From assembly GCA_016098155.1 (NCBI GenBank), contig JAAAJB010000265.1, forward strand, positions 1-46,160: DNA of 46,160 nucleotides. Reading direction: 5' to 3'. This DNA comes from Actinomortierella ambigua. Taxonomy: Eukaryota > Mortierellomycota > Mortierellomycetes > Mortierellales > Mortierellaceae. Of this stretch, positions 18,022 to 46,160 are shown piece by piece. The stretch's first letter is position 1. Every line of letters begins with the position of its first letter. The notes below the pieces were generated by a model. It ran no database searches. It was given only the letters and a program-made list of their open reading frames with translations, and was not told where the DNA came from. Made by a program: the position numbers and the translations under genes.

Positions 18022-19768
18022 CTAATGTTGGCTACTATGTACATCTCTGTATATATCTCGGATAGCATCGATGGAACCCATCACCATAGCTACGATGCCT
18101 ACCGCCAAGGTCATGACTGCAAAAGCTTTGTGTGCGAGCGATGCGCCCTGGTATCCTCCGAGCTTGTAGTAGCACATCACGGGCAGAATAAACACAAACA
18201 TGGAGCCTGTGAGTGCGCCGAGCAGGTCCATGACATCGCCAAAGAAGGGGATGACCAAGGAGATCAGGCAGACACTCGCACTGATCGCCGTCCGCAGGAT
18301 GGCCCGATAGGTGAATGAGTGACCCTGGTAATCGTCTGCAAACTGCACCCAGCGGGTAGATAGGGACGTTTCAATCATCATCGAGAGCGAGGTCAACATG
18401 ATTGGTGAGGCCAGCATGACATGCGCCGTAATTAGAAGGTTCGCCGAAGTTGTTAGGGGCCCTGCAAAAAAACCCTCCCCCAAGAGAGAAAGATAGACAG
18501 ATAGATAGATAGATAGGAAAAGTCAATGAAAAAGAGTATGCTAGATTCGGGCATCCTGCTCTACACGAGGAATGCGAGAGTTGCTCCCGCCTTTCTCTCC
18601 ACTTTCGGTGCTGTCTCATTCTTTTGTTCTTTTTTTTTCTTCTTTTGCAGCCCTTGCATGATACCAACTTGCAGCGAAACAAAAGAGTTGTGTACGTACC
18701 TTTGGGAAGATTGCTTAGAATAGGGCTTAGCGTATCTTGTCCGTATGCCGCGTATCCCACAGCGGCGATGGTGAAGTACAGGATGAAGCATGTTACGAGC
18801 GCTAGCCAAATAGCCCGGTTCCACTTTTTCGGCTCTCGCATGCTCTGTTCCACGTGTGGATACACTACGTTGCCGCCGTAGGCAAATGAGATGGTGGCCA
18901 TCGCCCGCGGTAAATTGGTCGTGATGATCTCATGCTGTACAATGATCCCTGCGGCTGCCTGACGAGCCATCTCATCGGCAGACATTCCTACCACAATGCA
19001 GACCACAAACAGTGTTGCCAGTGCTCCGAGAATACTGTCAAAGAAGGGATAGAAGACAAAAAGAAAGGAAGAAAAAGGGGGGAGAAAGCGGAGGGGGGAG
19101 GGAGACAAAAAAACATGAGCATGTAGGCAATTCCAGGAGCCTCATTACCTCCTTTCAGGGCCCATTGCATATGGGACAACTCCAATGAGAGGGACGCACC
19201 TGAGAAACGCCGTCTCCTTGAGGGTTCTTGTAAAGACAAAACAGGCCCAGCAAAACACGGCAACGAAGAAAATGTACCACTTGATCGACATTGTATCTTT
19301 GCCGGTCGCGTCGACGATGGTCGAGTGCAATATCCCGGCGGCAAGAATATTGTAAACAAGTGCCGTACCGTGCAGGCCGATGGCGCTTGTAGAGTATGAG
19401 ATCCAGTATCCAACCTTCCCAAAGGAGTCCTTGGCAATTTCTTGGTACGAGTGTCTCCTCTTGTTACTACTCAAACATAGTGTGAGACAGAAAGACCGCG
19501 GACACAAAAGAGGGAAAGAAATGGGGGGGGGGATGGAGCAGTTAAAGAACTCGTGTCCAAGACAGTAAATTTCATGCGTCCCCAATAACATGCCTTTAAC
19601 TGGTATTACGTTTTGAGGTACAACGATGTGATGAGAATAATGCCGGTATAGACGCTCATAAAAAGACTCAAAACGATGAGGCCAAGGCCTGCCCACCCTG
19701 CCAATGATGTAGCGTGCGCAAGTCCCAGCGTTCCTGTACCAGCCAACGTGCAGCTACGACGAGAAATT

Positions 19769-24359: not shown

Positions 24360-26573
24360 ATGCCCGTTTCATCCACTCGGCGGAGGAACCAGCCCCAACG
24401 CAACTACAAAGAGGAGGACCCTGACGACATGTCCCTGACCGAGGACAGCGATGCCCTGGAATCTGCCGATGACGAAGACCAGGCCAGTAGCGGCTACCCA
24501 TACGAAGATGCAGAAGATTTCGACATGGAAGAAGACGAAGGAGAGGAAGAGGCAGCAGCAGCAGCAGTAGCGGCAGCCCCTCAAGGGCGTTACGCAAGAG
24601 GTGGCGCTAGTCGCCGCAAGACTTCTGCTTCACCTGCCAAACCACCACCACCAGCCCCTTCTTCGTCCAGGAGCAGGGCGAAATCATCGGCAGCAGCAGC
24701 AACAGCAGCAGTACCACCACCACCACCACCACCACAAGCAAAATCCAGATCGGCAGCAATAAAAGGTGCCGCCACATCATCCCGATCGAGGAAGCCACCG
24801 GTGAACTATATCGAGGACGAGGACGATGAGGACGATCTGATGGAGGACGAGGACGACGAGGAGGAAGAGGAAGACGAGGAAGAAGAGCAAGTTCAACAAC
24901 AGCGTAAACGGGATACTCGTGCACCGTCCCGGAGATCTCCCATCAAGCGTCGAGGTAACTGCAACACTCCTGGACAGTTGACGTTCTGTATGGACTCTTT
25001 GATCAACACCCATTTTTTTTTCTTTGTCTTGGCTGATCTTTGATCTCTCTTATCACTACTTTCTTCAATAGAATTTTCGCCGTTGAGCTCGGAAGGGGAG
25101 GAAGAGGAGCAGGAAATTGACATGGAAGAGGAGGAAATCGACCTCGAGGAAGGCCTGGAGGAGAATGAGGAAGAAGAAGAGGAGGAAGATATCGACGTTG
25201 GCATGGATGAAGACGAAGAAGAGGAAGAAGATGATGACGACGACGAAGAGGAAGATGACGAAGAGGAGGAGGATGAAGGAGAAGAATCCACATCCACACC
25301 GAGCAGGGGAAGAGGCGGGCCCGGTGGCAAAAAGGGTGCATCAGCGTCAGCAGCTGCTGCCTCTGGTGGTGGTCGTGGCGGACGTCAAAAGGGCAAAGGT
25401 CGAGCCTCTGCCAGCAAAGGCGGTGCTGCTGTCAAGGGCAACCTGACGGACGACGAGTTTAGCGACGACGAAGACTTTTCAACCCCTCAACCGGGTATGG
25501 GCTTTGGCGGCAATTTGACCAAGCGACAGCGATCCAAGCTTGATGGTAGTGAAGCATTTCCTTTGGATTTCCTCGAGTTGCCAAGTGGTAAGCCATCCCC
25601 CACCCCTACCCTCACCCAAAGAAATATAGAAAAACCAACAGGGGGACGAGGACAGATATCGGCTCCAGCTATGAAACAGACGGAAGGGTGTGTGTGTGTG
25701 TACGTGGAGGAGGAGGGCGTTGGTCCATGGACCCATGCCCCCTTCTTGTACTATCTTATTCGATGTGCTAATTAGTTTCCTCCGCATCCTCCCTCTCTTC
25801 CCCCGCCCTCTTTTCACTCCCCACTAGCTGCATCGCGCAAGCGCCACAGGACTGAAGAGGAGCTCGCACTCAAGAAGAGTGAGCTGTCACGTCGACGGAA
25901 AAACATGACGGCGCAGCGGGCTGAACAGGACAAGATTGACACCATCAACCGTTTATTGAAGAAACAGGCAGGCAAGCGCAAGAAGGGCGGTGGCGATGAC
26001 GAAGAAGGTGGTGCAGGAGGCGGTGGTGGTGGTGGTGGCGGTAGTGCTGGCAGCGGTGGCGCAGGAGAAGGCGGCAACCTTCGACGGGACCAGGACAGCG
26101 ACAGGATGCGCAAAGTTCGGCACGTGATCCCGCCAACGTATCTTCGGACGATCTGCCGTGTCGAGGGCACGACCTTGTCGATCCCTGAGGTGTCGTTGGA
26201 TCGGGTGCGCGAGTGGATGAACGAGTCGATTCAAGAGCCCAAGGGTGTCAAGCCCTTGGTCACCGTGTCCGCTGTCAAAGAAAAGGCAGAAGCGAATGAC
26301 CAAATCTCACAAACCATTACAAAGCAAGAGGCAGGAGGCGAAGAGGCCTCTGGCGATGCAGCCACAGCAGAACAGATCAAGGCGCACAAGCCTATCGAGA
26401 TTCTGGAAGAACCTTTGGTGCCGCCCAAGGCACCCACGTATCCAGTACCCCGTGGCCATTGTGCTGTGGAGGGCTGTGTGCAGACCTGGAAGTACCGAGG
26501 CGTGAAAAGCAAGAAGCAGGTTTGCGGGGTGGAGCACCTCCGGTTAATAGAGAGCAAGGCATCCCAAGTCTAA
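24360..26573 (+). CDS. INO80 chromatin-remodelling subunit, Ies2/INO80B-like PAPA-1 protein (618 aa, three exons)
   Basis: Exons are 24360-24954, 25072-25587 and 25828-26573. Introns of 117 and 240 nt have donors GTAACT and GTAAGC, acceptors AATAG and ACTAG, and keep frame. Residues 1-345 are mainly acidic Glu/Asp runs with basic and Ala-rich patches. Residues 346 to about 420 form a PAPA-1 region: LTKRQRSK, then LDFLELPS, then TEEELALKKSELSRRRK and a terminal NRLLKKQ, the signature of Ies2/INO80B. A Gly-rich linker follows. The last 40 residues contain Cys582, Cys587, Cys603 and His607 around a WKYR core, like a reduced HIT-type zinc finger, also expected in this family. The protein should act in the nucleus, where Ies2 activates the INO80 nucleosome-sliding ATPase. 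Exon 2 borders fall inside the PAPA-1 region. The acidic tracts are encoded by GAA/GAG/GAC repeats and may vary in length. Confidence 0.85.
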
Positions 26574-26858: not shown

Positions 26859-29204
26859 TTACATACCACGCTCGCCTCGGCGTTGGCCATGTGAAGGCTC
26901 ATAATGGAACCAATTATCATCCGAGTAGACAGACCCATGAGGATTCGGGTGCTGGCCACCGACGCCCAGGGGGTGGTAGCCAAATTGGTGAGGATGGTGG
27001 TGGTGCTGGAATTCATTGCCGCCCCTGCCATAACGCTGGCCAGGCCCGTCGCCGGGGCCCATACCACTGCCGTCCAGGCCATCCACGTCGCGGCCCTGAT
27101 ACTCAAAGCGATCGCGCAGGCGATCTCCAAGTTTGCGGCCATAATCTTCGACATGGTCCATTCCCTCCCTTCCCTTGCGTTGGGCATCTTGGATCTGCTC
27201 TTGCCACCAGCGTCGCCCTTCTTGCATCTTGTGGTCGACGTCTGTTTGGAAACCCTGTCTCTTGACACGGTCCTTGACTTGTCCCAACCTGTCCTCCCAC
27301 TGGTGTGAGTGCTCGTATGACGGCGAGGCGGGTGCAGGTGGTGACGCTGAAGAGGGCAAGGACCGAGAGGACGTGGGTTCACCACCTTGTTTGGTGTGGG
27401 TGTTCCACCACTGGCGAGCTGGCGACGGCGCACGGTCTTGCGAAGACGAGGAGAAGCGATCGGCAGACGGCTGCTGCTGCTGCTGCTGCTTGGCTCGTGC
27501 CCAGGACTGTTGGCCTTCCTCACGAACCGTCTCGAAGACGGAGGGACGGCGATAGCGAGGACGGGCACCACGAGATTCCTCCTCGTATTCTCCTTCTCCG
27601 TCATCGCGCTGGAAGGAAGATGAAGGATAGGTGCGCGGGTGGCGTTCTCGACCGCGATATTCTTCGTCCCGGGTAGTAGGGCTCGCCTCCATGTTTTCCT
27701 GATCTCCATACCTTTGCTGTTGCTGCTGCCAACGTGCCTCGCGTGTGCGATGCCACTCTCGCCACGATGGCTGCTGATGCTCTTGTTGCTGCTGCTGCTG
27801 CTGCCATTCGTGTTGCAGCTCTGAAGGTTCTTCGTCGACCACCCAAGATCGGCGGCTTGAACGGCCGCGAGGCCATTCTTCCTCCACTTCTCCCTTTCTT
27901 CTTTCACGTAGCTTCTCCCCCTCTTCTCGAGCCCAGTTCCGAACACGATCCCAGCCACGCTCGGCCCCATCGTGCACATCTTGCCGCACTTGGCGTTGAC
28001 GTTGGGACCATTCTTCCTTGGCATGTTCACCGGCCTCGTGGGCCGACCGCTTGAACGAATCGAATTCTTTGGGGATCGTTCGCTGGGCTTCGTCAACATG
28101 GGAGTGGACCCACTGCCTGGCCTTTTGTGCCGAGGCCTCGGCATCGTCCTTGAAGGACTCGGCTGAAGCCTGGGCCCGGTTGGCGGCCTCGTGGCCCTTG
28201 GCTTTCCAGTCCTGCGCGACTTCTTGACCTTTGGCCTTCCAGTCCTGCGCAAACTCTTGACCCTTGGCCTTCCAGTCCTGCGTAGCCTCTTTACCTTTCG
28301 CCTTCAAGTCATGAGCGACCTCTTGACCCTTGGCCTTCCAGTCCTGCGCCACCTCGCGACCTTTGGCTTTAATGTCATGGGCGACCTCCTCCGACCGATC
28401 CTTGAGCTCGTGCGCAACATGAGAAGACTGTCGCTGGACACCCTCAAAGGCATGTTGGGCCTTCTTTTGGAGTTTATGGGACTGGTCCTCCAAATCATGC
28501 GCGACCTCTTTGGCCTTGTGCTCTGCAGCCTGAAACCCGCCCAGAGCAAAGTCAACGGTTCCCTCAGCAAGGCCGACGACGGTGTCCTTGGCCGAGACGG
28601 CCGATTGCTGGAGATGATAGACCTTGTGCTGGGCCTCTTGTCCGATCTGCCGGTAGTCATACGTTTTCAACCCATCCAGGAGTTTGTTTGTCGTTCGTGG
28701 GATCGTGTACGCGGCCGCGCCGAGCGCAAACGCAAAGGGGGACACGAACCGGACGAGGAAATTGCTCTTGCGCGCTAGAAAGGCGCCGACAAACCCGGCC
28801 GCTGTGATGTACAGCACCGCAGGGACGAGCTCTTCTTCCTCGCGCTGGCCAGCTGCCATGGAGGTACCTCGGCCGCGGGTTGATCGACGGTACTCCGCTC
28901 TGTCGTCAGGGAAAGAGTGTTGGTATGGGGAGGACCGGTAGGGTGGGTCGGCGAGATCAAGAGTTTCACCCTGACGTAGTATGTGGTATATCATATGAAT
29001 GAGTTCTTCAATGCGGGATGTGGTGTGCCATTAGACATTAAACGTTGGATAGGGTGTCGAGGGTGGGGTAGGTGGACTTACTCGCTGGCAGTGTAGAGGC
29101 TTGGCGCGAGCATTGGCGATGCTGGCACCTATCACAGTAGATGACACAAGAATCACAGGCTGTGTGAACTGTGCAAGAGTATTAGATAGTTTTTGTTTAG
29201 TCAT
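26859..29204 (-). CDS. MICOS subunit MIC26/MIC27-like (apolipoprotein O family) with an 11-mer repeat extension (744 aa, two exons)
   Basis: Exon 1 is 29204-29082 and exon 2 is 28970-26859. The 111-nt intron has donor GTAAGT and acceptor ACGTCAG, phase 0. The start is uncertain; an in-frame ATG at 29279 would add 25 residues. Residues 89-150 match the apolipoprotein O/MIC26-MIC27 core: a hydrophobic helix from LVPAVLYITAAGFVGAFLAR, a second hydrophobic segment (about 113-131), then Pro-Arg-Thr and a Leu-Leu-Asp-Gly motif. Such proteins sit in the mitochondrial inner membrane and shape crista junctions. Relatives are usually 200-270 residues, so this one is about three times longer. Residues 231-307 are seven tandem 11-residue repeats near KAKGQEVAQDW, and the rest is charged, Gln/Arg/Trp-rich and probably disordered. 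It is divergent from the L-2-hydroxyglutarate dehydrogenase gene. Confidence 0.72.
28173..28403 (-). repeat. 33-bp tandem repeat encoding seven 11-residue amphipathic units
   Basis: Seven consecutive 33-bp units in the MIC26/27-like gene encode Lys-Ala-Lys-Gly-x-Glu-x-Ala-x-Asp-Trp/Leu. Eleven-residue periodicity with Lys, Glu and Ala is typical of LEA group 3 and apolipoprotein-like lipid-surface helices. The repeat also keeps other frames open on both strands. Confidence 0.85.
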
Positions 29205-30018: not shown

Positions 30019-31294
30019 TTGCATAGTTTTTTTTGACACGCGCTACTTTTCTTTTTGGTTAGTTCGAGAAACAGCGAGGTGATTCATGCAGGCATCTATT
30101 ATCCAGCAGACTCGCTTAGGACTCGGCTATGTCTACGTGGAAACAGGATGCTTTACGACGTCTGTTCCAAGAACAAGATTGAGCACTCACGCGTCACAAA
30201 GTGGGTCGTGGGCCACTCGGATCAGGATACAGAATACCTCAGCCGCTTGATGCACAAGGGTCATCAGCTCGGCGTCACCCAATTAGCACTTATCTCACAG
30301 GACCAGATGCGCAAACATGAGCCTCATGTCGCCGGCACTGTTGCGCTCGTCTCCCCTACAACCGGCATCGTGGATGTTCATGGCTTCATGGATTACCTGG
30401 CTCAGAGCATTCTGGGTCATGGTAGCGACGTGGCGCTCGAGTGCAAGGTGACACACATCGAGCATCTCGGCTCTTCTACATCATCCTCGCCTCCGGCAGC
30501 AGCAGCATCGTCACCACCATCACCCTCCAGCATCCCCGAGAGTGAGGACGGTCCGTTAGCAGGACCCTTCCGTGTTACCATGGAAACACCTGCAGGTGTG
30601 ACGGTTGTAGAGGCCGCAACGCTCATCAATTGTGGAGGACTACACTCGGATAAGATTTACAACATGGTCTATCATGGGTTTGGATTTGAACAGGACGATG
30701 CAATGCGCGCTCGATGCCCCTATCGAGTCTACTATTGCAAGGGTCACTACTACAGCTACAAAGGCCCGACGCTCGTGTCGCGGCTAATTTACCCAGTCCC
30801 AGACCCCAATATCACTAGTCTGGGCACTCACCTCACTCTCGACCTGGCAGGCCGGATGCGGTTTGGACCAGATGTGCTTTACGTCGACCGTTCGGATGAC
30901 TATGCGATCGACCTAGAGACCCTGGCAAGTCCTGAACACCTCCAGATGGTGAGCCGTGTTATCCAAAGCTACCTGCCAGCGATCCAGCCGGATCATATTT
31001 ATCCGGACTATGCTGGTATTCGGTATGTATTATTGACTCATTATCTCTATCGCTTGAAGCATCCATGTTGTCTTTGTAGCCACCGAAGGTGTCGATGGTC
31101 AAAGTATGAGTAAGGGTCCTTCTCACACAGTTCTAATATTCTCCTGTAGACCAAAGGTTCAAGCGCCGGGTGACCCATTCAAGGATTTTGTGATTGAAAG
31201 ACGTGGAGGCTACGTACATTTGGCAGGCATCGAGAGTCCTGGATTGACATCATCGCTGGCCATTGCAGAGCATGTCGAGGCTCTTCTATTCTGA
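29658..31294 (+). CDS. L-2-hydroxyglutarate dehydrogenase, mitochondrial (455 aa, three exons)
   Basis: Exons are 29658-29920, 30063-31022 and 31150-31294. The introns of 142 and 127 nt have donors GTATTT and GTATGT and acceptors GGTTAG and CTGTAG, and all joins keep frame. The N-terminus is rich in Arg and Ala without acids, like a mitochondrial targeting sequence. Residues 50-80 hold the FAD-binding Rossmann motif GAGVVG (55-60). Exon 2 contains NSEVIHAGIYYP and the exon 2/3 junction rebuilds IRPKVQAPGDPF; exon 3 ends with GIESPGLTSSLAI. These blocks are hallmarks of L2HGDH, which oxidises L-2-hydroxyglutarate to 2-oxoglutarate. Length is close to the human enzyme. A Ser/Ala/Pro-rich insertion of about 30 residues (near 30470-30560) interrupts the substrate domain and is probably a surface loop. 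Intron 1 has a CT microsatellite. Confidence 0.92.
29986..30014. repeat. (CT)n microsatellite in an intron
   Basis: About 14 CT units inside intron 1 of the L-2-hydroxyglutarate dehydrogenase gene (29921-30062). Confidence 0.9.
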
Positions 31295-33725: not shown

Positions 33726-34636
33726 GGTGTTGGTCGTCTTGAGCGAGTCTTCTTGATGCTTAGAAAGGGTCAAACGATGGAGAGTCGTGAGCAGGGTGTG
33801 AGCGAGGAGAAGAGGAACAAGAAAGAAGAAGAGCGCGAAAAGTGAAAGTGGGGTGAAAATATGAGATAGAGAGAGAGGGAGAGAATTTGCTTGAGGGGAG
33901 AAAGAAAACGCAATAGTGTGATCAGGTGCAGAAAGGGGGTGATGCATTGTTGTTCATCCATGCACAGGAGAGACTCTGGAACCAGGGTTCACATCCTTTC
34001 TTTCGTGTTGTTATAGAAGGATAGGAGAGGCACCAGAGCTGACAGCATGGTGTGGTTGAGGTCTGACTCAGATAAAGCACTTGCATCTGCGAAGAAGTAT
34101 TGCCAGTTTCCATGGGTACGAGGGGTGTATGATAGCGTGGCTCCGGTCACCACCCTTGCACACCTCACATTCGGACTTTCGACCTTCAGTCTCACTCACC
34201 CACGACTCGAGTGAGCTTATCGACTTTATATTTTTTACTGGTGGTCTGAGATGGCTGCGAACTACACCATGCCATTCCAATAACACCATGACACCCATGT
34301 GGCCATCTGTCTCGTCATGACTGCGCTGGAACCACAACCCAAAGCAGCGCCCAAAGGTTTGTGAGGACGAGAATAGGATTGGTGACGGCACTCTCTGAGC
34401 TACGCCGCCAAATTTTTAGACCTATGCGGAGGCCTTGTAACACAACCTTTTCGCTATCATACTTTAATGCTAAAGCTGCAGAGCTGGTTAATGGACATGT
34501 TGAATCCCAATAATCTACGAGAGGATTCCGTCACTCATGCCTATTGCGCACACATGCGCCACGTCAAGTGTTGTCTTGTGAATGGAAAGACCCGGACGTG
34601 CAGACACCTTCACTGGCAGGTTACCAATGAAAGTGA
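33726..34636. other. Intergenic stretch
   Basis: Contains the promoter and GA/CT-rich leader of the glycogen-module gene (minus). No gene was recognised in the rest. The kinase part expected upstream of the Sel1 pseudogene is not present here. Confidence 0.5.
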
Positions 34637-35440
34637 ATGTCGACCATTGATGTCGGTGGTGACAGCGACCCAGATGTAGCCGCAGTGATCAAGCGCTTAG
34701 AGGCTAATGATATGGATGCACTGTTTGCTCCAGCCAAGATCTACTATGTACACAGGCAACCAGGACGACGCCACCCCCCCCCCCCAGAACGATTCGGAGA
34801 CCTTCTGCTAATGTCTTTGCCTTGCTGCGCGAGGTCACCTCCGAGTAAAGCGTGGCCCAGGTAGTTCCAGAGTCACCACAAGCGGCGCTCTCCAGGGTCC
34901 AGAGCTACACATGGTGCTAAAACGGCTGAATAACGAGGCCAGCTGGGCACCATGTATCAGCATGGTCATGGCGTCAAAAAGAGCAGTGTTGAGGCCGTCG
35001 CTTGCTATCGACAGTCGTCTGGGCGGGGTAAAGCTCTAGAACTGAACAACATCGGATCGAAGTACAGGACTGGCCTAGACTATATCCGTAGCAATTATGA
35101 GGTCGTGAGGTGGTTTACGGAGGCCATTGTCCAAGACAATTCAACCGCTCCCTCTTTAATCGTGGTCGGATACGCTCGAAGAATAACCGTGGTGTTGAGT
35201 TGAGCATGGGACGGCCCTGATTGGTGCTGCAAGAAGGCCAACCAAGGCGGTGCAGAGGCGCAGTGCTAGCTTGATTCATTACACGGCAGTGGTTTTGATA
35301 TCGACCAATGCGATACTGGAGCCTTGGCATGCTACCACATGGCAACGGAGTAGGGTGATTCTGTGGCCAAAATCGCCTTGGCCTAATGTACAGTAAGGAC
35401 TGTGTAGCCGTGGCGTCAAACTGCCTGTTCCAATATCCCA
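34637..35440 (+). pseudogene. 5'-truncated, frameshifted kinase-Sel1 pseudogene
   Basis: Fragments of the same family as the two intact downstream genes, in changing frames. The start matches the linker and first Sel1 unit (VIKRLEAND against LIKRAEAND). DNA at 34784-34800 matches 43011-43027, and 34874-34894 matches 43101-43122. From about 34955 a clean stretch (YQHGHGVKKSSVEAVACYRQ) matches Sel1 repeats 3-5. After about 35200 only scattered matches with stops remain, such as a Leu-Gly-Leu-Met-Tyr-like piece near 35370-35430. The whole kinase domain and the ATG exon are missing. The sequence is closer to the second intact gene (41717-45279) than to the first, notably at GGCGCTCTCCAG. It is probably a decayed partial duplicate. 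Confidence 0.8.
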
Positions 35441-36051
35441 TCCAGCAGCGCCGTGTTTGGTCGTTTTGATCGCGATAGTGCTTACTGCAGTTGCTGTGCT
35501 ACGTACCCATTGCATGCCTTCCCGTCGATGATTTTCCCGCTCCCTCACCACAAGAGGCTGTACATGAATGCACTGCCTTTGTTCTGTTCCTCTTGCATGC
35601 TCATGCAGATATATACCAGACCCGAGCCAAGCTTTCTCTCAGAGTCAGAGTTCGCCAAGGGTTGACAGGATTTTCACACGAAGCTCCCGCTCAGACGATG
35701 ACTCCATCTCCCGTATGGCCGTTCGTATCGCTCAATACTAGATACATACTGGCAATACTGGCAATACTAGCATGGCGCCATTCATGGGGAGGTAGCCCCC
35801 TGTTACTCTACGCACTCTGACAGCAGTCAGTGCATGATAGGTAAGGGACTTGTAAGGACTTTAGAGGGACAAGTCAGCCACAGATGTGATGTAAGTGTTT
35901 TGGGCAAGGACTCTCACATCTCCTTTCTCCCTCTCTCCACCTTCAACCAGTTCACACGCACATTCTCTTCATTGCACTCATTTCCCTGTCTTCATTGTCC
36001 ATTCGGCCTGCATTTTTGCGCGCATCCCCTTCGTGACTTCAGCTTTCTGCA
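35441..36051. other. Spacer and promoter of the first kinase-Sel1 gene
   Basis: Short open frames without domains. The last 150 nt are CT-rich and contain the conserved GTTCACACGC element at 35950-35959. Confidence 0.5.
35950..35959 (+). promoter_or_regulatory. Conserved GTTCACACGC element, copy 1
   Basis: Ten bases identical in all three family members that retain a start. Here it ends 93 nt before the ATG at 36052, in otherwise poorly matching CT-rich sequence. It may be a promoter or leader element. Confidence 0.45.
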
Positions 36052-39000
36052 ATGGTATGTAGGACTGAGAGGTACTTGTATAGCATCGATCATCCATTGA
36101 AACTCCGATCCATACTCACATTCGGTGCTCTCTTTCTCTTTCGCTCTCTCTCTTCCTGACGGTCTTACACCACAGACGGGGCCAACATTGCTGCTAGGGA
36201 GGCGTATCGGCAAAGGCGGTTGTGGAACTGTTTACCAGGCAAAGTGGGGCAACCGCAACGTAGCTGTCAAGAAGTTCACCGTCTCCCATGAAGAGGCCAA
36301 AGACAATCCACTTGTGAGGAAGGAGATTGAAATACTTTCGCGGCTCCAAGACAAACACATCATCCAGTTTTACGACACCTCCTACCATGAAGGGCAGCTT
36401 GTTCTCATTATGGACTACGCCGAAGGAGGATCCCTCAAAAATGCCATCGATCATCATCAACTTAATTGGAGAACCAAGACACAAATCGCCCAAGGCATCG
36501 CCCGCGGACTTGATTACATGCACTCACAGAAGGTGCTTCACCGAGATCTCAAGAGCGCCAATGTCCTCCTGACCAAGCACATGGAAGTGAAGCTCTGTGA
36601 CTTTGGTCTGGCCACTGTCAAGGTCACATCAATCTCCAAGGCCAGTAGCCTGAAGGGCACTCCCCGCTGGATGGCACCCGAGCTGTTTGATATCAGGCCA
36701 AAGTACTCCACCAAATCCGACATGTACGCGCTCGGGATGGTCATGTGGGAGATGGCTGCCGAGAGCACTGTGCCTTTCAAGAGTCAGCCCAACGACTTTG
36801 CCATAGTCGCGCTCATTTTGAGCAACAGCCGAGAGACTCTACCAGACGCTACCCCGAAGAAGTACCGCGGGTGGGTTGAGCGATGCTGGCATAGTGATCC
36901 CAAAGAGCGTCCCGAAGCTCACGAGATGTATGAGAGCGACGACGATCCTGAAGATGCTACCTCCGAGGACCTCACGATGGGCAAGGGTGATGCTCGGACC
37001 CACGGCGTCGGCTGTGATGACCCTGACGATGGTCGACTTGAAGACGACGGTCACAAGGTAGAACCAACAAATCCTGCACCCAATGTGCAGACTCGAACCA
37101 CACTGAGCACCACGCTGAGCACCATCGACATTGTAGAGGGGCTAGACATGATATCCTCCTCCTCCATAGCCACGCTGTCACTGCGTAGCGGCGAAGGCGT
37201 CGGCTACCTCAAAGATGGCAGGCTAGACGTGGGTGAGCTGACCAAGCGAGCAGAGGCCAATAACGCAGAGGCTCAGTTCACTCTAGCAGATCTATACGAT
37301 AAGGGCAGCAGAGACGAAGTGGCTCAGAGCGACTCGGATGCCTTCTATTGGTACCTTCGAGCTTCCAAACAAAACCACCTGCACGCGCAGCGCCGCTTGG
37401 CCGGCCTCTACCACAGCGGACGTGGTACCCCCAAGAGCGTCGCGGATGCCGCCAAATGGTACCAGAAAGCGGCCGACCAAGGTGATGCCAAAGCGCAAAA
37501 CCGGTTTGGCCACATGTGCCAGTTTGGTCACGGCGTCAAACAGAGTGATGTCGAGGCCGTGGTCTGGTACCGTCAGTCAGCGGGACTAGGTTATGCGCCG
37601 GCCCAGAACAACCTTGGATTGATGTACCGAGCTGGTCGAGGCTTCATTCGCAGCGACGCCGAAGCCGTGAAGTGGTTTCAGAAAGCTGCCGAACAAGATC
37701 ACCCCAACGCTTGCTTCAATCTTGGGTGGATGCAAGAGAAGGGTCGTGGTGTCGAGATGAGTATGGAAAAGGCCCTCGTTTGGTACCGCAAAGCAGAGAG
37801 TCTAGGTGATCCGGCAGCTCAGTATCGTCATGCGCGGATGCACGAGAAGGCTCATGGCATCGACAATGCCGAAGCCTTCATGTGGTATCGCAGGGCGGCT
37901 GAGCAAGGTCATGCGAAAGCGCAGAGTAAGCTTGGTATGATGTTCCAGCATGGGCACAGTACTGATGCGGACGATGAGATGGCGCTCTCATGGTATCGGA
38001 AGGCTGCAGAGCAAGATGACGCAAGTGGCCAATACAACCTCGGCTGGATGTACGAGAACGGTCGGGGCACTAAGAAGAGCGACCCCGATGCCCTCACTTG
38101 GTATCTCAGGTCGGCTGAGAATGGCTACTCAGATGCTCAAGAGAAGGTCGGCTCCTTGTACCAGGCTGGTCGCGGTGTCGAGAAGAGCAACACTCAGGCT
38201 CTCACATGGTACCGCAAGGCCGCTGAGCAGGACCACGTTGGTGGACAGCACAGCCTGGGTATGATGTACCATAACGGATTAGGTGTCGAGCAAAACTATT
38301 ACACCGCATTCACATGGCTCCAGAAGGCTGCCGACAAAGGTCATGCGAGTGCACAAGTCGCTCTTTCAGGGATGTATGCCGCCGGCCATGGCGTGGCACC
38401 AAATGAGGCACATGCTGCCAAGTGGTGTCAGGCGGCTGCTGCTCAGGGGGTCGCGGAGGCACAGAAGCTTTTGGGAACCATGTATCAGGAAGGCAAAGGC
38501 GTAGTGCAAAGTGACAGCATAGCCGTCGAGTGGTTCCGCAAGGCTGCAGAGCAAGGTCACGCCATTGGCCAAAACTGTCTAGGACTCGCGTACAGCAAAG
38601 GCCGTGGTGTTGAAAATAACGATGCTGTGGCTGTCGAATGGTACCTTAAGGCAGCAGAGCAAGGTTATTCAAGCGCCCAGAACAATATCGGCGCGATGTA
38701 CTTGGCCGGTCGCGGAGTCGAGCGCAGTGCCTCGCAAGCTGTCATATGGCTACGCAAGGCCGCTGAGCAAGGCAATCCTGATGCCCAATATGGACTCGGC
38801 ATGCTCTACGAGAACGGCCATGGCGTCGAGCAGAGCGACACCGATGCAGTCCAGTGGTATCGCAAAGCTGCAGATCAAGGCAACGCCAAGAGCCAATACT
38901 GCCTCGGGATGTTGTTCAAGAAGGGTGGGCGTGGTGTCGAGAAGAGTGTGCGCGCGGCCTATGAGTTGTTTCAAAAAGCGGCCAATCAAGGACACTCTGT

Positions 39001-39898
39001 TGCCCAGTATCATCTAGGAATCATGTACTTGGAAGGGAATGGCGTCGAACGCAATCTTTCTCAGGCTGTCGCATGGCTCCGCAAAGCTGCTGACCAAGGT
39101 GATGCCGAAGCCCAAGACAGTCTGGGGAGTCTCTACAAAAATGGTATCCACGTCGAGCAGAGCTACACCATGGCAGTTGGGCTGTACCGCAAATCGGCTG
39201 ATCAAGGCAACGCCAATGGTCAGTACAGCCTCGCGAGGATGTACAGCACAGGCCGAGGTGTGGTGAAGAGTGATGCCAGGGCACTCGAGTTGTATCAGAA
39301 GGCGGCGGCGCAAGGTCATTCCCCTTCCCAGCACATTCTCGTCGTCATGTACTTTCAAGGACAGGGAGGTGGGCCTAACATCACTGAGGCTATGAAATGG
39401 ACTCGAAAAGCCGCTGAAAATGGCTCTGCCCAATTCCAAAACTTGCTCGGTATGATGCACGCTATCGCAGATGACTACGACGAGGCCATCGAGTGGTTCC
39501 GCAAGGCCGCAGCACAAAATTATAGCGCCGCACAGTACCAACTTGGCCTCATGTACTACAAGGGCCGAGCTGTCGAGAAGAGTCTCACAAAGGCTTACTT
39601 GTTGTTCCGTCTCGCCGCCGAACAAGGGGACGAGGATGCTCAAGGAGCGATTGGCGCAATGTATATGGATGGCGAAGGTGTTGACCAAAACGATGAGCAG
39701 GCGGTGTTGTGGCTACGCAAAGCGGCTGAGAAAGGTGAAGTGCAGGCACAGAAACGCTTGGGGTTGATGTATTTCAAGGGTCGCGGTGTCAGCAAAAACA
39801 ATGAGATGGCAGTATTTTGGCTCCGCAAGGCAGCGGAAAAAGGAGATGAGGAGGCCAAAACCGCTCTTGGGCGCATTGAAGCTTGTACCATTTTGTAA
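36052..39898 (+). CDS. TKL-type protein kinase fused to 24 Sel1 repeats (1241 aa)
   Basis: Exon 1 is just the ATG at 36052-36054 and exon 2 is 36176-39898. The 121-nt intron has donor GTATGT and acceptor ACCACAG, phase 0. This start was preferred to the in-frame ATG at 36125 because it reproduces the structure of the two sister genes. The kinase domain spans about 8-255: glycine loop GKGGCG (13-18), Lys33 in VAVK, Glu51, HRDLKSANVLL (His123, Asp125), DFG (143-145), GTPRWMAPE (162-170) and Arg246. All catalytic residues are present, so it should be active. The HRDLKSAN and GTPRWMAPE forms suit the tyrosine-kinase-like group. Residues 256-355 are an acidic, Ser/Thr-rich linker. From about 365 to the end are 24 Sel1 units of some 36 residues plus a partial one. 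Sel1 arrays form alpha-helical solenoids for protein binding. No signal peptide or membrane segment was seen, so it is probably cytosolic. Confidence 0.88.
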
Positions 39899-41716
39899 CC
39901 ACAATTATGGAATCAGTGCCGCCGCCGCTACCGCTGCTGTTGCTTCTTCTCCTGCTCCTGTTCTTCCATCCCTTACGCCCGCCTCCATTCCATCGTCTGT
40001 CGTTCCAGCTTGCTGTCCGAAAACGGGGTCAGCGCATTGCACCGAGTCAGGTGCTTGGCACAACGCTTCTGTATCAAGTCTTTGTTGCCATACGATGGCC
40101 TCCCAGCTCTTGGGGTTTCCTCTATAACTGTTTTTATGCAGTACTAGATATGCTAGCCTTCAAATGCAAAGAGAACAAAAAAGTAACGGCTTTTATGATT
40201 GGGATATAGTTGTAAAAGTCATTAGGCGGAGATAATTAAAAGCAGGATGTTAGACCGGGTCTTCATGCGTTCTCATCTCGCGACAACCTCAACTCGTTTG
40301 ATAGTCTGATGAGAAACCCGTTTCAACGCCATACTCTTGTACCGATTCAAGCAATCTATCTGGGGAAATATCTCAGAATGGTCACACCGGATGGTACCGA
40401 TCATGTCACTAATGAGACGGTGTCACTATTGCTCCAGCTCCTGCTGTAAAGATTTACAAGCGTATCTTTCTCATATAGACTCAAAAGAACCGCAAGCGTG
40501 CTCTGTTTTGTATTGCTCAGATATCGATGCTGCTGCACGAGCACTCTAGCTTCAGACGTCGCCCCTGTTCTCGAAAACGTTGTCTACGTAGTAGAAGATG
40601 GAATATAGGTAGAGTTAGCAGGGGGAAGCAGAACATGAACATGAAAACAGGCGGAGCTTTCTCCCTCATGAAAACAATGTAGACCACTCTTTGTCTTTCG
40701 GTTGTTCGCCCATGATTGATGGTAGTTTCCGAATTCTAGCCTTCGTCTCTCCCAAAACAAGGAAGCGGCTGTTCAAATTTTGGATAGCGAACCCTTATAT
40801 TGGCGCTTGGTTATTGAGCAACGGTGTAAAACGATCTAGTCATTCCTTGCTCACTTGGTGGCTGGCCTTAAATTAAACCTATGCATGGTAGCATATCTTG
40901 CTAGAATAGTGAAAACGTCCCCAGAGTAGTCACGGTTGAGGGGTTGCTACCTTTGGTTGTTGTGGTAGCCTTGAGCGGTGTTGCTACCTGTAACTGTAAA
41001 GATACTGATGTGCAGGTGCAATACCTAGTTTCCAGCAGTGCCTTTCTACCTACCCCCTACTCCTATTCAGTTGGACCAATGGAAGGTGATTCTCATGTAC
41101 GATGCTGTGCTACAATCTTGCCAGGGAATTCCGCGGAGGCAATGGTCCATTCCATAGTACACTAAGAAGAGATGCATATCATCTACTCCCATCGTCCCGC
41201 AGAGATTCGACACAAACAAATAATGTACAGCACAACCCCTGAGACGAGGAGTTCCCTGAGCACTGAGAGCGACAAGTCTAGTGAGAATTTTCCTTGTACA
41301 TTCGCCAACAGTGACAGCGTCATTATCCCTCCTCCTGTTGCATACTGTAAGAGGCAGAGAGGACAAAGGCTTCAATACCCCAGCTCTTGCTGGAGCCAGA
41401 AATATCGACTAGCAGGGCCTTCCATGTCGAATGCTTGAGAGGAGGCATGCCATAGGAAAAAAGGGCATTGAATCCCCTCTTCGAACTCTCATAGACAGAC
41501 AGACACACCTTGACTTCTATCGTTGAGTGAAGGTGCGTGGGGAGAGGCGAGAGCGAAGGAGGCTCTGGCTGTGGGATGTTTCGCAGGATGTAAATTTTAT
41601 GCTTTCCTTGTCTTCTGTTCACACGCCCTCATCATTCCGTTCATTGCACTTTCATCTCTACATTCCAAACTCGCATTCTTCATCACCACTTGCTGAACTT
41701 TATTTGCACTCGTGAT
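39899..41716. other. Spacer between the two intact kinase-Sel1 genes
   Basis: No gene supported. A segment near 40062-40117 resembles one near 45450-45500 downstream of the second gene (shared CTCTGTATCA-like and CTCCCAG blocks), suggesting the 3' flank was duplicated too. The end of the spacer is CT-rich and holds the second GTTCACACGC element. Confidence 0.45.
41617..41626 (+). promoter_or_regulatory. Conserved GTTCACACGC element, copy 2
   Basis: Ends 91 nt before the ATG at 41717. Flanking sequence (TCTTCTGTTCACACGCCCTC) also matches the third gene closely. Confidence 0.5.
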
Positions 41717-44700
41717 GGTAAGTCGATTTTTTTTTTTTTCAATTTGGCTTCACAACCAGTCATGACATGCCAGAGATACAAAAGATTCTGACTACTCTTC
41801 GCTCCTTGATTGCCATACACATTTAGGCCGAACTGCCTTTGATATTAGGCGAACGCATAGGCAAAGGCGGTTTTGGGGTCGTCTACCACGCCAAGTGGGG
41901 GAGCCGCACCGTAGCCGTCAAGAAGTTCACTGTCTCCCAGGACGAGGCCGATGCAAGTGCAGAAATAAAACGAGAAATTGACATGCTCGATCGGCTCAAA
42001 GACAAGCACATCATCCAGTTCTATGGCACTACCTACCATGACGGCAATCTCGTCCTAGTCATGGAGCGCGCCGAAGGAGGATCCCTCAAGAGTGCCATCG
42101 AACAAGGGAAGCTCAACTGGCGAACCAAGAAGCAAATCACCCAAGGCATCGTCCGTGGGCTCGACTACATGCACTCACAGAGGGTGCTTCATCGTGATCT
42201 CAAAAGTGCCAATGTCCTCTTGACCAAATACATGGATGTCAAGCTTTGCGATTTCGGTCTGGCCACTGTCAAGGTCACATCAGTTGCCAGACTCACCGGC
42301 ATCAAGGGCACACCACGCTGGATGGCACCTGAGCTGTTTGATTCTAAGCCAGTCTATTCCGCCAAATCCGACATGTATGCACTTGGGATGGTCATGTGGG
42401 AAATGGCCGCCAACAACACCGTACCCTTCCGGAGCCAACCCAACGACATCGCACTTATAGGACTCGTCATTTGCGGAAAACGAGAGACACTACCAGACGA
42501 TACACCAGACGAGTACCGCAAGTGGGTTGAACGGTGCTGGCTCCATGACTATAAGGCACGCCCCAATGCTCATGAGATGATTGAGGATGATGATGAATAC
42601 GACGATGTCGATCCTGGCGATGTCTCCCCAAAGGCGAGCGATCCAGGCAAGGACGCTCCAAAGGCGAGCGATGCTGCCCACGACGCTCCAAAGTCCCGCG
42701 AGGCTAGCCAGCGTGCTCCTGATGTCGGTAGTCCTGGCAAAGACGTAAATGGGAATGGCTCCGTGAGGTCTGCGACCCCTGTGCGCCTGAGTCTCATCGA
42801 CAATATGGAGGTGCTCAGCATACAGTCCTCTTCCGCAGCCTCGCCACCATTAGCAGGGGGAAATCACGACGACGGCAATGACAGTGATCTGGAGCTTGAT
42901 CACGACCATCTCGACATGGCCGTGTTAATCAAGCGAGCAGAAGCGAACGACGCTGAGGCACAATTTGCGCTATCCGAGATCTACGAAAAGGGCAAAGTCA
43001 AAGACGTTATCCAGAACGACTCGGAGGCCTTCTATTGGTGCCTTCGTGCTGCTAAGCGAAACCATATCCGGGCACAGCGTCGCCTTGGTAGGTATTACTT
43101 CACCGGACGCGGCGCTCTCCAGAGCTTCACAGAGGCAGCCACCTGGTACGAAAAGGCGGCTGCACAGGATGATGCTAAAGCGCAAAACCAGCTGGGTACG
43201 ATGCACCAGCATGGCTATGGCGTCAAGAAGAGCGATGTCGAGGCTGTCGCATACTATCGACAGTCGGCTGGGCAAGGCTATGCTCCAGCCCAGAACAATC
43301 TCGGACTGATGTACACTGCTGGCCGTGGTTTCGTCCGCAGCGATTTCGAGGCTGTGAAGTGGTTCATGAAGGCTGCCGAGCAAGGCGACCCAAATTCTCT
43401 CTTCAATCTTGGGTGGATGCACGAAAAGGGCCGAGGTGTGGAGATGAACCTGGAGACGGCTCTCACATGGTACCGCGAGGCTGGCGAGCGTGGTCACACG
43501 GTAGCACAGTTCACTCTTGGGCGAATGTACGACAAAGGCCGTGGGGTCGAGAGAGACGAAGAGAGTGCCCTTCTCTGGTACTTCCATGCGGCGGAACAGG
43601 ATCATGCTGAGGCACAAAACATTCTTGGCACGATGATCCGAGATGGTCGCGGCACCGATAAGAGTGACGAGACGGCTCTCTTATGGCTCCGCAAAGCTGC
43701 GGAACTGGGTAGCGTAAAGGCGCTCTACAATCTCGGCTGGATGTACGAGAAAGGTCGAGGCGTTGAGAAGAACGAGATCGCAGCCTTCACCTGGTATCTG
43801 CGGTCAGGAGAAAAGGGCGACCCAGATGCTCAAAAGAGGCTCGGGGACATGTATCTGAATGGTCGTGGTGTCGAGGAGAGCAACGAACAAGCTGTTGCAT
43901 GGTATCGCAAAGCTGCTGAGCAAGATCATCCCGGTGGGCAGAACATCCTGGGCAAGATGTACCATGCGGGTCTAGGTGTCGCGCAGAACTATTCCCTCGC
44001 ATTCAAGTGGGTACACAAGGCGGCTGACCAAGGCGACGCGAATGCGCAGTGTCGACTGGCAGGGATGTACATTGCAGGCCATGGCGTAGAGAAGAGTGCA
44101 ACACAGGCTGCCAAGTGGTTCAACCTGGCTGCCTCGCAAGGAGACGCTGACGCTCAGGGGCTTTTGGGCGCGATGTACCAGGCAGGCGTGGGTGTCCAAC
44201 AAAGCGATACCATGGCTGTTGAATGGTACCAAAAGGCAGCTTCTCAAGGGCATGCTGGTGGTCAGAATAGGCTCGGCTTGATGTACGGGAAGGGTCGTGG
44301 CGTCCAGAAGAGCGATGACGAGGCTTTCAGGTGGTTCCAACTGGCCGCAGAGCAAGGTGATCCTGATGCTCAGTTCAATCTTGGCAACCGATACTTGTGT
44401 GGCCGAGGAGTCGAACGGAGCCTCACCCAGGCTGCCACCTGGTTCCGCAAGTCTGCCGATCAAGGCAATGCTGATGCCCAAGACAGCTTGGGTACGCTCT
44501 ATGAGAACGGTCAGGGTGTCGAGCAAAACCACACGAAAGCTGTCGAATGGTACCGCAAATCAGTAGAGCAAGGCAATGCCGATGGCCAGAACAGCCTCGC
44601 GTTGATGTATTTGAACGGTCGTGGAGTAGAGAAGAACGAAGCAAAGGCCGTAGAGTTGCTGAAGAAGGCAGCAAACCAGGATCATGCCAGCGCCCAATTC

Positions 44701-45279
44701 AATCTTGGTGGACTGTACTTGAGTGGTAGAGGGGTCGAGCTCAACGTCTCTGAGGGCATCAGGTGGCTCCGAAAGGCGGCCGAGCAAGGTAACGCCAATG
44801 CCCAGACCAACCTCGGTATGCTGTACCGTACCGGGAAAGGCGTTACGCAGGACCACATCGAGGCGATGAAGTGGTTCTTAAAGGCTGTAGAGCAGGATCA
44901 TGCTGCTGCAAAGTACCATCTAGCCTTTATGTTCTATCATGGTGAAGGCGTTGAGAAGAGTCTCGAGAAGGCCTTTGTGTTATTTCAACTTGCCGCCGTA
45001 CGTGGGCATGAAGATGCTCAGGGAGCTGTTGGTGCCATGTACATGAATGGTCAAGGTGTCGACCAGAACGACGATTTGGCGGTGTACTGGCTACGCAAGG
45101 CAGCCGAGAAAGGCGATGCGCAGGCGCAGAGACGTCTAGGGTTCATGTATCTCCGTGGCCGTGGTGTCAACCAGAACAGTGAGATGGCAGAATCGTGGTA
45201 CCGCAGGGCAGCGGATCAAGGAGATGACGAGGCCAAGAATGCCCTTGCGCGTATGAAGTCAGATTGCCATGTCTCCTAA
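41717..45279 (+). CDS. TKL-type protein kinase fused to 21 Sel1 repeats (1151 aa)
   Basis: Exon 1 is the ATG at 41717-41719 and exon 2 is 41827-45279. The 107-nt intron has donor GTAAGT, a T-rich tract and acceptor ACATTTAG, phase 0. Without the splice the frame has no ATG before the glycine loop. Kinase domain at about 8-255: GKGGFG (13-18), Lys33, Glu51, HRDLKSANVLL (His123, Asp125), DFG (143-145), GTPRWMAPE (162-170). All key residues are intact. The linker (256-365) differs from the sister gene and has short repeats around Ser-Pro-Lys-Ala-Ser-Asp and Asp-Ala-Pro-Lys, plus an acidic end. From about 377 to the end are 21 Sel1 units and a partial one, three fewer than the upstream gene. Target and pathway are unknown. 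Fused TKL-Sel1 kinases are known to be expanded in some Mucoromycota; that supports the assignment but not a function. Confidence 0.9.
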
Positions 45280-45837
45280 CGCGCGAAAATAAAATCAATA
45301 TTCGAGGAACATTTTTGTTGCTTCAATATACCCACGGTTCAGCAACTGCCATTGACAGTTCTGCGAGATGGCCACATCCATCGTGCTGCTGCTAATGCCT
45401 CACTCCGATCAATCTGATGTGTCTACTTTATGGAAGGCCCACTCGCCGAAAACGCCTCTGTATCAGAGAACACCAAACATAGCGGCTCCCAGGGATAAAC
45501 AGTGGAACAGAATAGTGAGAAAGATTGTCGGTTCCTGAGCCTCGGAGAAAATCAGTGCTCACGTCATTCACTGCATCTGACAACTACATAGGAAATCGAG
45601 AACTTTCCATAATTTATGCAGAGAACAAGTGTGTAACCATTTGACCTTGACCATGCCAAAGGGAGAGGGCGGAAAGGGAGGCTGCAGTTATGGGAAAACT
45701 TCGCAAGGTCAACAAAGATGCCCCCCCCCCCTTGTCTTCAGTTCACACGCCCTCATCTTTTCGCTCATTCATTGCTTTCATCTCTCCATTCGAAACTCAC
45801 ATTCTCCATCACCACCAGAACTTTATTTGCACTCGTG
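45280..45837. other. Spacer before the third kinase-Sel1 gene
   Basis: No gene seen. The last 130 nt align with the upstream region of the second gene, including a run of C at about 45721-45731, the GTTCACACGC element and the sequence CTTTATTTGCACTCGTGATG up to the start. Confidence 0.6.
45741..45750 (+). promoter_or_regulatory. Conserved GTTCACACGC element, copy 3
   Basis: Ends 88 nt before the ATG at 45838. The surrounding 90 nt are similar to those of the second gene. Confidence 0.5.
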
Positions 45838-46160
45838 ATGGTAAGGCGATTTTTTCCAGCTTGGTTTTGCAATAGTCATAGCCTGCTGCAAAATACCGAA
45901 GATACAAAGATACTGACCACTATTTTCTCCTTGGTTACCATACACATTTAGGCCGAACTGCCTTTGATCTTTGGCGAACTCATAGGCAAAGGCGGCTTTG
46001 GAGCTGTCTACCATGCCAAGTGGGGGAGCCGCACCGTGGCCGTCAAGAAGTTCACTGTCTCCAAGGACGAGGCCGATGCAAGTGCTGAAATTAAACGAGA
46101 GATTAACATCCTCGATCGGCTCAAAGACAAGCACATCATCCAGTTCTATGGCACAACCTA
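45838..46160 (+). CDS. TKL-type kinase of the same family, cut by the window end
   Basis: Exon 1 is the ATG at 45838-45840 and exon 2 runs from 45952 past the end of the window. The 111-nt intron has donor GTAAGG and acceptor ACATTTAG and is clearly homologous to that of the second gene. The visible 70 residues cover the N-terminal kinase lobe: glycine loop GKGGFG, VAVKK, the alpha-C Glu and KHIIQFYGT, nearly identical to the second gene. One difference is Phe-Gly-Glu-Leu instead of Leu-Gly-Glu-Arg before the glycine loop. Whether a Sel1 array follows cannot be seen. Confidence 0.85.

Follow-up and report, generated by a model that had tools for sequence, protein, structure and literature searches.

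A tandem cluster of kinase–Sel1 fusion genes in Actinomortierella ambigua belongs to a large family with a variable, putatively ligand-binding repeat face

Fungal NLR and heterokaryon-incompatibility repertoires are large, turnover-prone families that couple a repeat sensor to a signalling domain; incompatibility receptors carry near-identical repeats within a gene and show positive selection at binding sites. The DELE1-HRI stress relay consists of two separate proteins, one of Sel1 type and the stress kinase that it acts on. MLKL-type necroptosis pseudokinases combine an inactive kinase with an N-terminal four-helix executioner. eEF2K is an alpha-kinase. In arbuscular mycorrhizal fungi (Rhizophagus irregularis, Paraglomus), the passages cited count Sel1 and kinase domains among those expanded; some of the genes form tandem arrays, and the sets can be specific to a strain (PMC8647823, PMC6123716, PMC9453076). 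A 2022 survey, in the passage cited, lists MLKL-like proteins that carry a repetitive Sel1 domain and have 'no clear function', confined to Glomeromycotina among the fungi that it covered (PMC8778642).

The window analysed here is an entire contig (G000:C185, 46,160 bp) of A. ambigua, locus tag DFQ27. It ends in four kinase–Sel1 copies arranged head to tail on the forward strand: a decayed copy, gene 1, gene 2, and an incomplete gene 3. A sequence-only reading had described this four-member, single-strand array, with its 24-unit and 21-unit genes and a third start, and our analysis bore it out. Because the window is the whole contig, gene 3 is not extendable past 46160. The features are as follows.

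34218..34386, + strand: decayed copy, weak kinase C-lobe remnant (tblastn against kinase residues ~185-261 of genes 1, 2, and paralogue C644)
34604..35412, + strand: decayed copy, linker and about six Sel1 units in broken frames (tblastn against gene 2 residues 340-591, E 3e-25)
36052..36054, + strand: gene 1, predicted exon 1, ATG alone (donor ATG/GTATGT, intron 36055-36175, acceptor CAG)
36176..39898, + strand: gene 1, exon 2, encoding kinase, acidic linker, and 24 Sel1 units (1241 aa)
36188..36934, + strand: gene 1 kinase domain
36935..37267, + strand: gene 1 linker, acidic, poorly conserved (39% to gene 2)
37268..39850, + strand: gene 1 Sel1 array, 24 units
41606..41714, + strand: gene 2 leader, similar in gene 3 (45730-45837; blastn and alignment)
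41715..41717, + strand: gene 2, predicted exon 1, ATG alone (intron 41718-41826)
41827..45279, + strand: gene 2, exon 2, encoding kinase, disordered linker, and 21 Sel1 units (1151 aa)
41839..42585, + strand: gene 2 kinase domain
42586..42960, + strand: gene 2 linker, mostly predicted disordered (pLDDT <50 at model residues 251-354)
42961..45230, + strand: gene 2 Sel1 solenoid, 21 units (HMM count and structure model)
45838..45840, + strand: gene 3, predicted exon 1, ATG alone (intron 45841-45951)
45952..46160, + strand: gene 3, kinase start, truncated where the contig stops (91% identity with gene 2 across 69 residues)

The decayed copy had been placed from 34637 onward. Its presence was confirmed, but it begins earlier, with the C-lobe remnant, for which the best regional E value was 0.010 (tblastn) and the top bit score was matched by 0 of 100 shuffles. 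Genes 2 and 3 form a recent pair, with 91% identity across 68 codons and a dS of 0.26, and from the leader onward they align by blastn at 85% over 440 columns (41606-42035 versus 45730-46160). Genes 1 and 2 are an old pair with 71% kinase identity and a dS of 0.95. The linker, Sel1 number, and Sel1 sequence differ between them, as had been proposed, linker identity being 39% and the unit counts 24 and 21. The sequence-only reading had also named near-identical, misassembled copies as a possible source of the array; the copies are clearly diverged and so are not a single gene misassembled. These data demonstrate head-to-tail duplication and decay in the cluster. Omega between genes 1 and 2 was 0.21 for the kinase and 0.18 for the Sel1 array, indicating purifying selection in this pair.

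Both window kinases scored far above the Pfam Pkinase and PK_Tyr_Ser-Thr cut-off (192.7 and 188.3 bits versus 31.7), and the Sel1 arrays, which are tandem 36-residue helix pairs, far above the Sel1 cut-off (624 and 610 bits versus 30.7). A unit HMM trained on units of the window genes and C644 counted 24 and 21 units, the numbers first read from the letters; Pfam counted 22 and 21. The catalytic lysine, HRD aspartate, and DFG aspartate, expected to be kept, are present in 43 of the 45 family genes with DNA, including both window genes on alignment. The kinase may be TKL-like: it matches CTR1, MLK, and RAF, but the STE20-type MST3 scores as high and an EGFR entry ranks first. The window carries a single tandem cluster of a very large family in which such kinases are joined to Sel1 solenoids. 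The structure model of gene 2 comprises a kinase, a disordered linker, and a solenoid of helix pairs. In fold comparisons it showed an ordinary protein kinase fold, and the top solenoid matches were Sel1 proteins. Relatives of the array with solved structures include DELE1 (E 3e-18).

Several known architectures were rejected. Within an E limit of 0.001, neither window protein gave an alpha-kinase match, which together with the ordinary kinase fold excludes an eEF2K-type enzyme. At the same limit, neither matched a NACHT or NB-ARC nucleotide-binding domain, so they are not NLR/STAND receptors. An MLKL-type pseudokinase is incompatible with the intact kinase residues and with a kinase lying only about five residues in from the predicted start codon. 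Since the kinase begins so close to the start, the family proteins are probably intracellular, judging from sequence. The start codon itself is split off as its own coding exon in 37 of 44 family genes; six altered patterns gave 2-6 of 44, and the same pattern farther upstream gave 7 of 42. These single-ATG first exons are predictions from the DNA letters.

The search for further kinase–Sel1 fusions that had been suggested revealed at least 187 related kinase-domain places in the genome. Tandem arrangement and fusion to Sel1 are both common among them, and of 51 close neighbours 43 share a strand. Arrays reach 26 units, and some have only 0-2. A strict activation-loop pattern matched only three places. 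In protein searches with gene 2 that covered full lengths of about 630-4186 aa, the 120 matches listed per search included neither the window genes' own proteins nor close counterparts in other strains. The window's transporter is present in the protein database while its kinase genes are missing from the matches listed; nothing can therefore be concluded from absence in other strains. Clustering of this database at 90% also biases the cross-strain pairs found there toward diverged ones. Single-copy orthologues with conserved Sel1 number had been put forward as an observation against a fast-evolving family, and part of the family does behave in this way: the orthologue-like pairs P0035/P0039 and P0033/P0036 have 12 and 12 units each, and P0071 does not lack a DFQ27 counterpart, having one at C663 that is 99% identical over its full length.

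Comparison of paralogues revealed how the genes change. The C157 paralogues differ by four separate 36-residue indels in the Sel1 array, demonstrating gain and loss of whole units. In the C15 neighbours, kinase DNA windows are 90-100% alike over ~720 bp, flanked by sequence at most 61% alike before the kinase and, after it, by 83% dropping to at most 74%. This tract, common to the neighbours while linker and Sel1 differ, looks conversion-like. P0012, a protein of strain DFQ26, matches C541 gene A of DFQ27 at 84-97% over residues 1-360 and C541 gene B at 93-100% over residues 401-780; it is a cross-strain mosaic in which the kinase of one DFQ27 gene is joined to the array of its neighbour. Together, the kinase tract, unit turnover, and mosaic make the evolution of the family look modular. 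We consider it very unlikely that part of the mosaic evidence is an assembly error, in which contigs built from short reads were linked across tandem genes that resemble each other. The window does terminate inside gene 3, P0012 sits on a 10,580-bp contig, and its switch falls at the longest exact run shared by C541 genes A and B (32 bp). Measured against commonly used k-mers, however, such a run is short for producing a false join, although P0012 is known here from its protein alone; the C15 tract is internal to a single contig and flanked on either side by divergent DNA, and the groove counts described below are independent of contiguity.

Concerted evolution of units within a gene was not supported, because units at equivalent positions in genes 1 and 2 resemble each other more (mean 54%) than units at different positions do (37.5%); the best match was the same-position unit in 13 of 21 cases, some misses being register shifts. 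Within a gene, unit identity averaged 37% with a maximum of 67%. This low similarity is unlike that of fungal incompatibility receptors and counts against a sensor repertoire. An incompatibility receptor with highly similar repeats was rejected on these values and on a groove omega not convincingly above 1.

The groove set comprised unit positions 1, 4, 8, 11, and 12 (of 36) on one face of helix A. It was fixed after a five-pair variability table and the TPR groove positions 2, 5, 9, 12, and 13, to which we take the Sel1 positions to correspond. The five positions ranked 1-5 of 36 in variability in ten hand-picked paralogue pairs, none of them in the table but all chosen after odds ratios were known. 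Given that order of events and the hand-picking, the comparison was rerun on pairs picked by rule, which weakened the groove result: the same positions again held ranks 1-5 of 36 in ten pairs, and the groove exceeded other surface in 8 of 10 (sign test P 0.11, not significant; hand-picked, 9 of 10). Pooled counts in the ten-pair paralogue comparison were 192/337 for the groove versus 421/1120 for other surface. The ten pairs are distinct but not wholly independent, because several belong to a single subfamily. With own-genome loci added, the groove was higher in 13 of 18 pairs (P 0.10) and position 21 replaced 11 in the top five. P0007/P0004, both merged gene models, were for that reason left out of these groove counts; a six-pair pool that still included them untrimmed gave no groove excess (78/286 versus 307/1021).

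Of 35 own-genome pairs, 31 had a higher dN in the groove than on the rest of the surface, and all twenty-nine reciprocal-best pairs below 62% identity, not taken for orthologues, had the higher groove fraction. Groove omega ranged from 0.12 to 1.61 and was above 1 in 8 of 35 pairs, with bootstrap intervals of the least diverged pairs that include 1, so relaxed constraint may account for these values; no dN/dS value was convincingly above 1, and whole-gene positive selection was not seen. The helix-A face is the most variable part of the unit between paralogues. Among nine paralogue pairs whose kinase dS was below 0.7, eight had a higher omega for Sel1 than for the kinase, always below 1. The earlier idea of a fast-evolving recognition scaffold on a constant kinase is therefore moderately supported for the family, by the variable groove, the faster Sel1 array, and the shared kinase tract. 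The window genes themselves do not show it: omega is about 0.2, Sel1 is no faster than the kinase, and the groove shows no excess (47/86 versus 147/296).

These rates also suit neutral birth and death, in which tandem duplicates diverge at their least constrained surface without selection for diversity. Groove omega near or below 1, the decayed copy, arrays of 0-2 units, and the lack of a significant sign test on rule-picked pairs would all be expected. We nevertheless judge this account unlikely, since the catalytic residues are so widely kept and since, in the cross-species pair P0039/P0035, the groove is strongly conserved (1/50 versus 43/170, P 8e-5), so its positions are not free of constraint there.

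The hand-picked analysis had included three orthologue-like pairs, leaving out P0071/P0106 and others. Among six such pairs, the groove was more conserved in three (P0039/P0035, P0033/P0036, and P0016/L034), no different in two (P0071/P0106, 4/25 versus 13/93; P0041/P0013, 6/46 versus 30/172), and more variable in one (P0043/P0049, 25/53 versus 44/177). Conservation in half of the pairs, the full-length counterpart of P0071, and purifying selection on the window genes agree with fixed wiring, in which each paralogue is a signalling kinase holding its own constant internal partner or substrate on Sel1, with no role in defence or non-self recognition. Sel1-like repeats on a kinase are also known from eEF2K, in the passage cited (PMC11514114). 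Such wiring would not call for as much turnover as is seen in the 187 or more kinase places, the decayed copy, the changing unit number, and the single strain mosaic, and we regard it as somewhat unlikely.

The best explanation as a whole, which we advance tentatively at a little under even confidence, is a duplicated kinase–Sel1 family forming a groove-specific repertoire of internal sensors with a shared phosphorylation output. The helix-A face would form a groove for a ligand or adaptor, different in each paralogue, and binding might position or activate the constant kinase through the disordered linker, so that the family as a whole could act as internal sensors with one common output. The Mortierellaceae lineage is known for bacterial endosymbionts. 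A more specific proposal, which we consider doubtful, is an internal receptor repertoire without NLRs in Mortierellaceae: kinase output and Sel1 groove specificity would serve non-self recognition (endobacteria, viruses, other mycelia), kinase tract exchange would keep the family coherent, and unit turnover with module exchange in tandem arrays would diversify it.

If the groove reading is correct, the family becomes testable, since a change of groove between paralogues should bring a change of binding partner and the residues to look at are named; it would be a sensing repertoire like NLRs in logic but built on kinases. Expanded Sel1 and kinase genes of early-diverging fungi had previously been listed, in the passage cited, with 'no clear function' (PMC8778642). 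The likeness to NLR and incompatibility repertoires lies only in how the system would work; the window proteins have no nucleotide-binding match and low internal repeat identity. The arbuscular mycorrhizal expansions share the growth of both Sel1 and kinase domains and the tandem arrays; in the present case, a Mortierellaceae genome carries many copies of the fusion, the kinase residues are kept, and we measured how units turn over, how far the kinase tract extends, how often the start is split, and how variable the groove is, which the passages cited do not treat. eEF2K likewise carries a kinase and Sel1-like repeats on one chain, according to the passage cited (PMC11514114). It has four units, whereas the A. 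ambigua family has an ordinary kinase fold, up to 26 units, and many copies. DELE1 is a relative of the array with a solved structure; in A. ambigua the kinase and Sel1 parts are fused and expanded.

The window ends in four kinase–Sel1 copies, all on its plus strand, which bears out the head-to-tail array read from the sequence alone. Genes 1 and 2 have the 24 and 21 Sel1 units ascribed to them (22 and 21 by Pfam). The supposed third start is gene 3, of which the contig end leaves 69 residues, the window being the complete contig G000:C185 of a 33.8-Mb assembly in 846 contigs. A degraded copy is indeed present, but at about 34218–35412, earlier than the 34637 proposed, and it includes a weak kinase C-lobe remnant. 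Other features of the window and the predicted first coding exons of the array are as follows.

12917–14752 and 18371–19696, minus strand: two adjoining amino-acid transporter genes (Aa_trans), one piece below the Pfam cut-off
25905–26573, plus strand: PAPA-1-like region, upstream of the array
26859–28994, minus strand: ApoO-type gene, upstream of the array
30055–31113, plus strand: FAD-dependent oxidoreductase, upstream of the array
36052, 41715 and 45838: predicted first coding exons consisting of the start codon only

Genes 1 and 2 share 71% identity in the kinase (dN/dS 0.21), 61% in the Sel1 array (dN/dS 0.18, at a dS of 1.5, near saturation), and 39% in the linker, which had been noted to differ; stretches of 36 and 68 residues of the gene 1 array are missing from that of gene 2. 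Over 68 codons, genes 2 and 3 are 91% identical (dS 0.26, dN/dS 0.15). Purifying selection dominates in the window genes. The structural model of gene 2 (mean pLDDT 85.7, pTM 0.54, 40 sequences) comprises the kinase, a linker without predicted order (residues 251–354), and a stretch of helix pairs (residues 360–1142). Its best fold matches are Sel1 proteins, followed by the kinases MST3, ASK1, and RAF; with such a pTM, the modeled arrangement of kinase and solenoid cannot be relied on.

Three genome searches, in which only the best candidates were scored, yielded at least 187 distinct kinase-domain places on 116 contigs (from 150 listed matches, 47 of 50, and 46 of 83), after removal of matches that lacked most of the kinase domain or repeated the window. 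These are places counted by kinase domain alone, not genes, as some open frames carry two. Thirty-six clusters (spacing <12 kb) take in 87 of them, and 43 of 51 neighboring pairs within clusters lie on the same strand. The catalytic residues K, D, and D, said to be kept, are present in 43 of the 45 distinct kinase genes with DNA, and arrays hold 0 to 26 Sel1 units (24 genes on larger stretches, some of which cut a gene). The nearest solved kinases include plant CTR1, MST3, MLK, and RAF. Public records give several members the name "copper transport protein ctr1", probably a misnomer inherited from the CTR1 kinase.

Other architectures also occur. Two successive kinase domains lie in open frames at G000:C10 6922–13379 and C294 2213–4354; the database protein P0003 has three, then Sel1 units; and P0116 (DFQ27_009850) has two, then PF00072, presumably a response-regulator receiver domain, with no Sel1 listed. 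The kinase–Sel1 proteins P0089 and P0093 (strain DFQ26) carry a GTPase-like domain at the C terminus (PF04548 and PF01926, which we take to be AIG1 and MMR_HSR1).

The expectation that Sel1 evolves faster than the kinase held in 8 of 9 family pairs with kinase dS <0.7, but not in the window pair (dN/dS 0.18 versus 0.21). Sel1 dN/dS was below 1 in all nine; these pairs are not independent of one another, and two of the comparisons draw on 34 codons. In two pairs, dS breaks clearly along the gene. In neighboring genes on contig C15, with 12 versus 1 Sel1 units, kinase DNA windows are 90–100% identical across ~720 bp, flanked by ≤61% before and by 83% then ≤74% after; one internal 30-codon window has a dS of 0.46. 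In paralogues on C157 (16 versus 12 units, four separate 36-residue indels), dS is 0.06–0.21 across kinase, linker, and first unit and 0.44–0.75 beyond. Across strains, residues 1–360 of P0012 (strain DFQ26) resemble gene A of contig C541 (84–97% per window) and residues 401–780 gene B (93–100%), making P0012 a candidate mosaic of two adjacent genes (L073, G000:C541:3500–13400), with the switch near the first Sel1 units.

Unit positions, anchored on conserved L6, G7, and Y10, differed in variability. Five pooled recent pairs singled out 4, 8, and 11, along with 5, 24, and 25. We take positions 1, 4, 8, 11, and 12 to correspond to TPR positions 2, 5, 9, 12, and 13, the concave ligand surface; in the gene 2 model, these putative groove positions lie on helix A in a single arc of 100 degrees. 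In ten within-strain database-protein pairs, selected by rule in descending order of identity and without using any protein twice, they were the five most variable of 36, with 192/337 residues differing versus 421/1120 at other non-structural positions. The groove was higher in 8 of the 10 (P 0.11), in 13 of 18 pairs once own-genome loci were added (P 0.10; top positions 8, 1, 21, 12, and 4), and in 9 of 10 hand-picked pairs. Between genes 1 and 2 there was no groove excess (47/86 versus 147/296), and P0089 and P0093 have similar grooves (5/42 versus 26/141). Among the 74 pairs that passed filters, which are not independent, groove differences were 62% versus 43% in 62 within-strain pairs, 51% versus 39% in 10 cross-strain A. 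ambigua pairs, and 13% versus 36% in 2 cross-species reciprocal best pairs.

Groove dN/dS ranged from 0.12 to 1.61 in 35 own-genome pairs, exceeding 1 in 8 and the other-surface value in 31, with bootstrap intervals that include 1 in the least diverged pairs. Among six orthologue-like pairs, the groove was conserved in P0035/P0039 (1/50 versus 43/171), P0033/P0036 (11/43 versus 73/154), and P0016/L034 (4/40 versus 34/140), no different in P0071/P0106 (4/25 versus 13/93) and P0041/P0013 (6/46 versus 30/172), and more variable in P0043/P0049 (25/53 versus 44/177), which may be paralogues. The family behaves like a kinase set with paralogue-specific putative binding faces, which may serve to sense non-self or stress, as first suggested. 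The two nearest alternatives are fixed wiring of paralogues to different internal partners and neutral drift at a tolerant surface.

In genes 1, 2, and 3, the ATG is followed directly by a predicted intron of 109–121 nt. This split start recurs in 37 of 44 family genes with DNA, and the predicted intron measures 90–130 nt in 33 of the 37. By comparison, each of six altered patterns matched 2–6 of the 44 genes, and the unaltered pattern, when sought farther upstream, matched 7 of 42. On this sequence evidence, the predicted split start is a trait of the kinase–Sel1 family. With the start codon alone in its exon, promoter, leader, and ATG would be separable from the kinase as one module. Such a start is overlooked by plain ORF calling.

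The groove pattern, split start, and kinase tract are not described in the parts of the open-access literature consulted, where Sel1 and kinase expansions have been catalogued, mostly in arbuscular mycorrhizal fungi.
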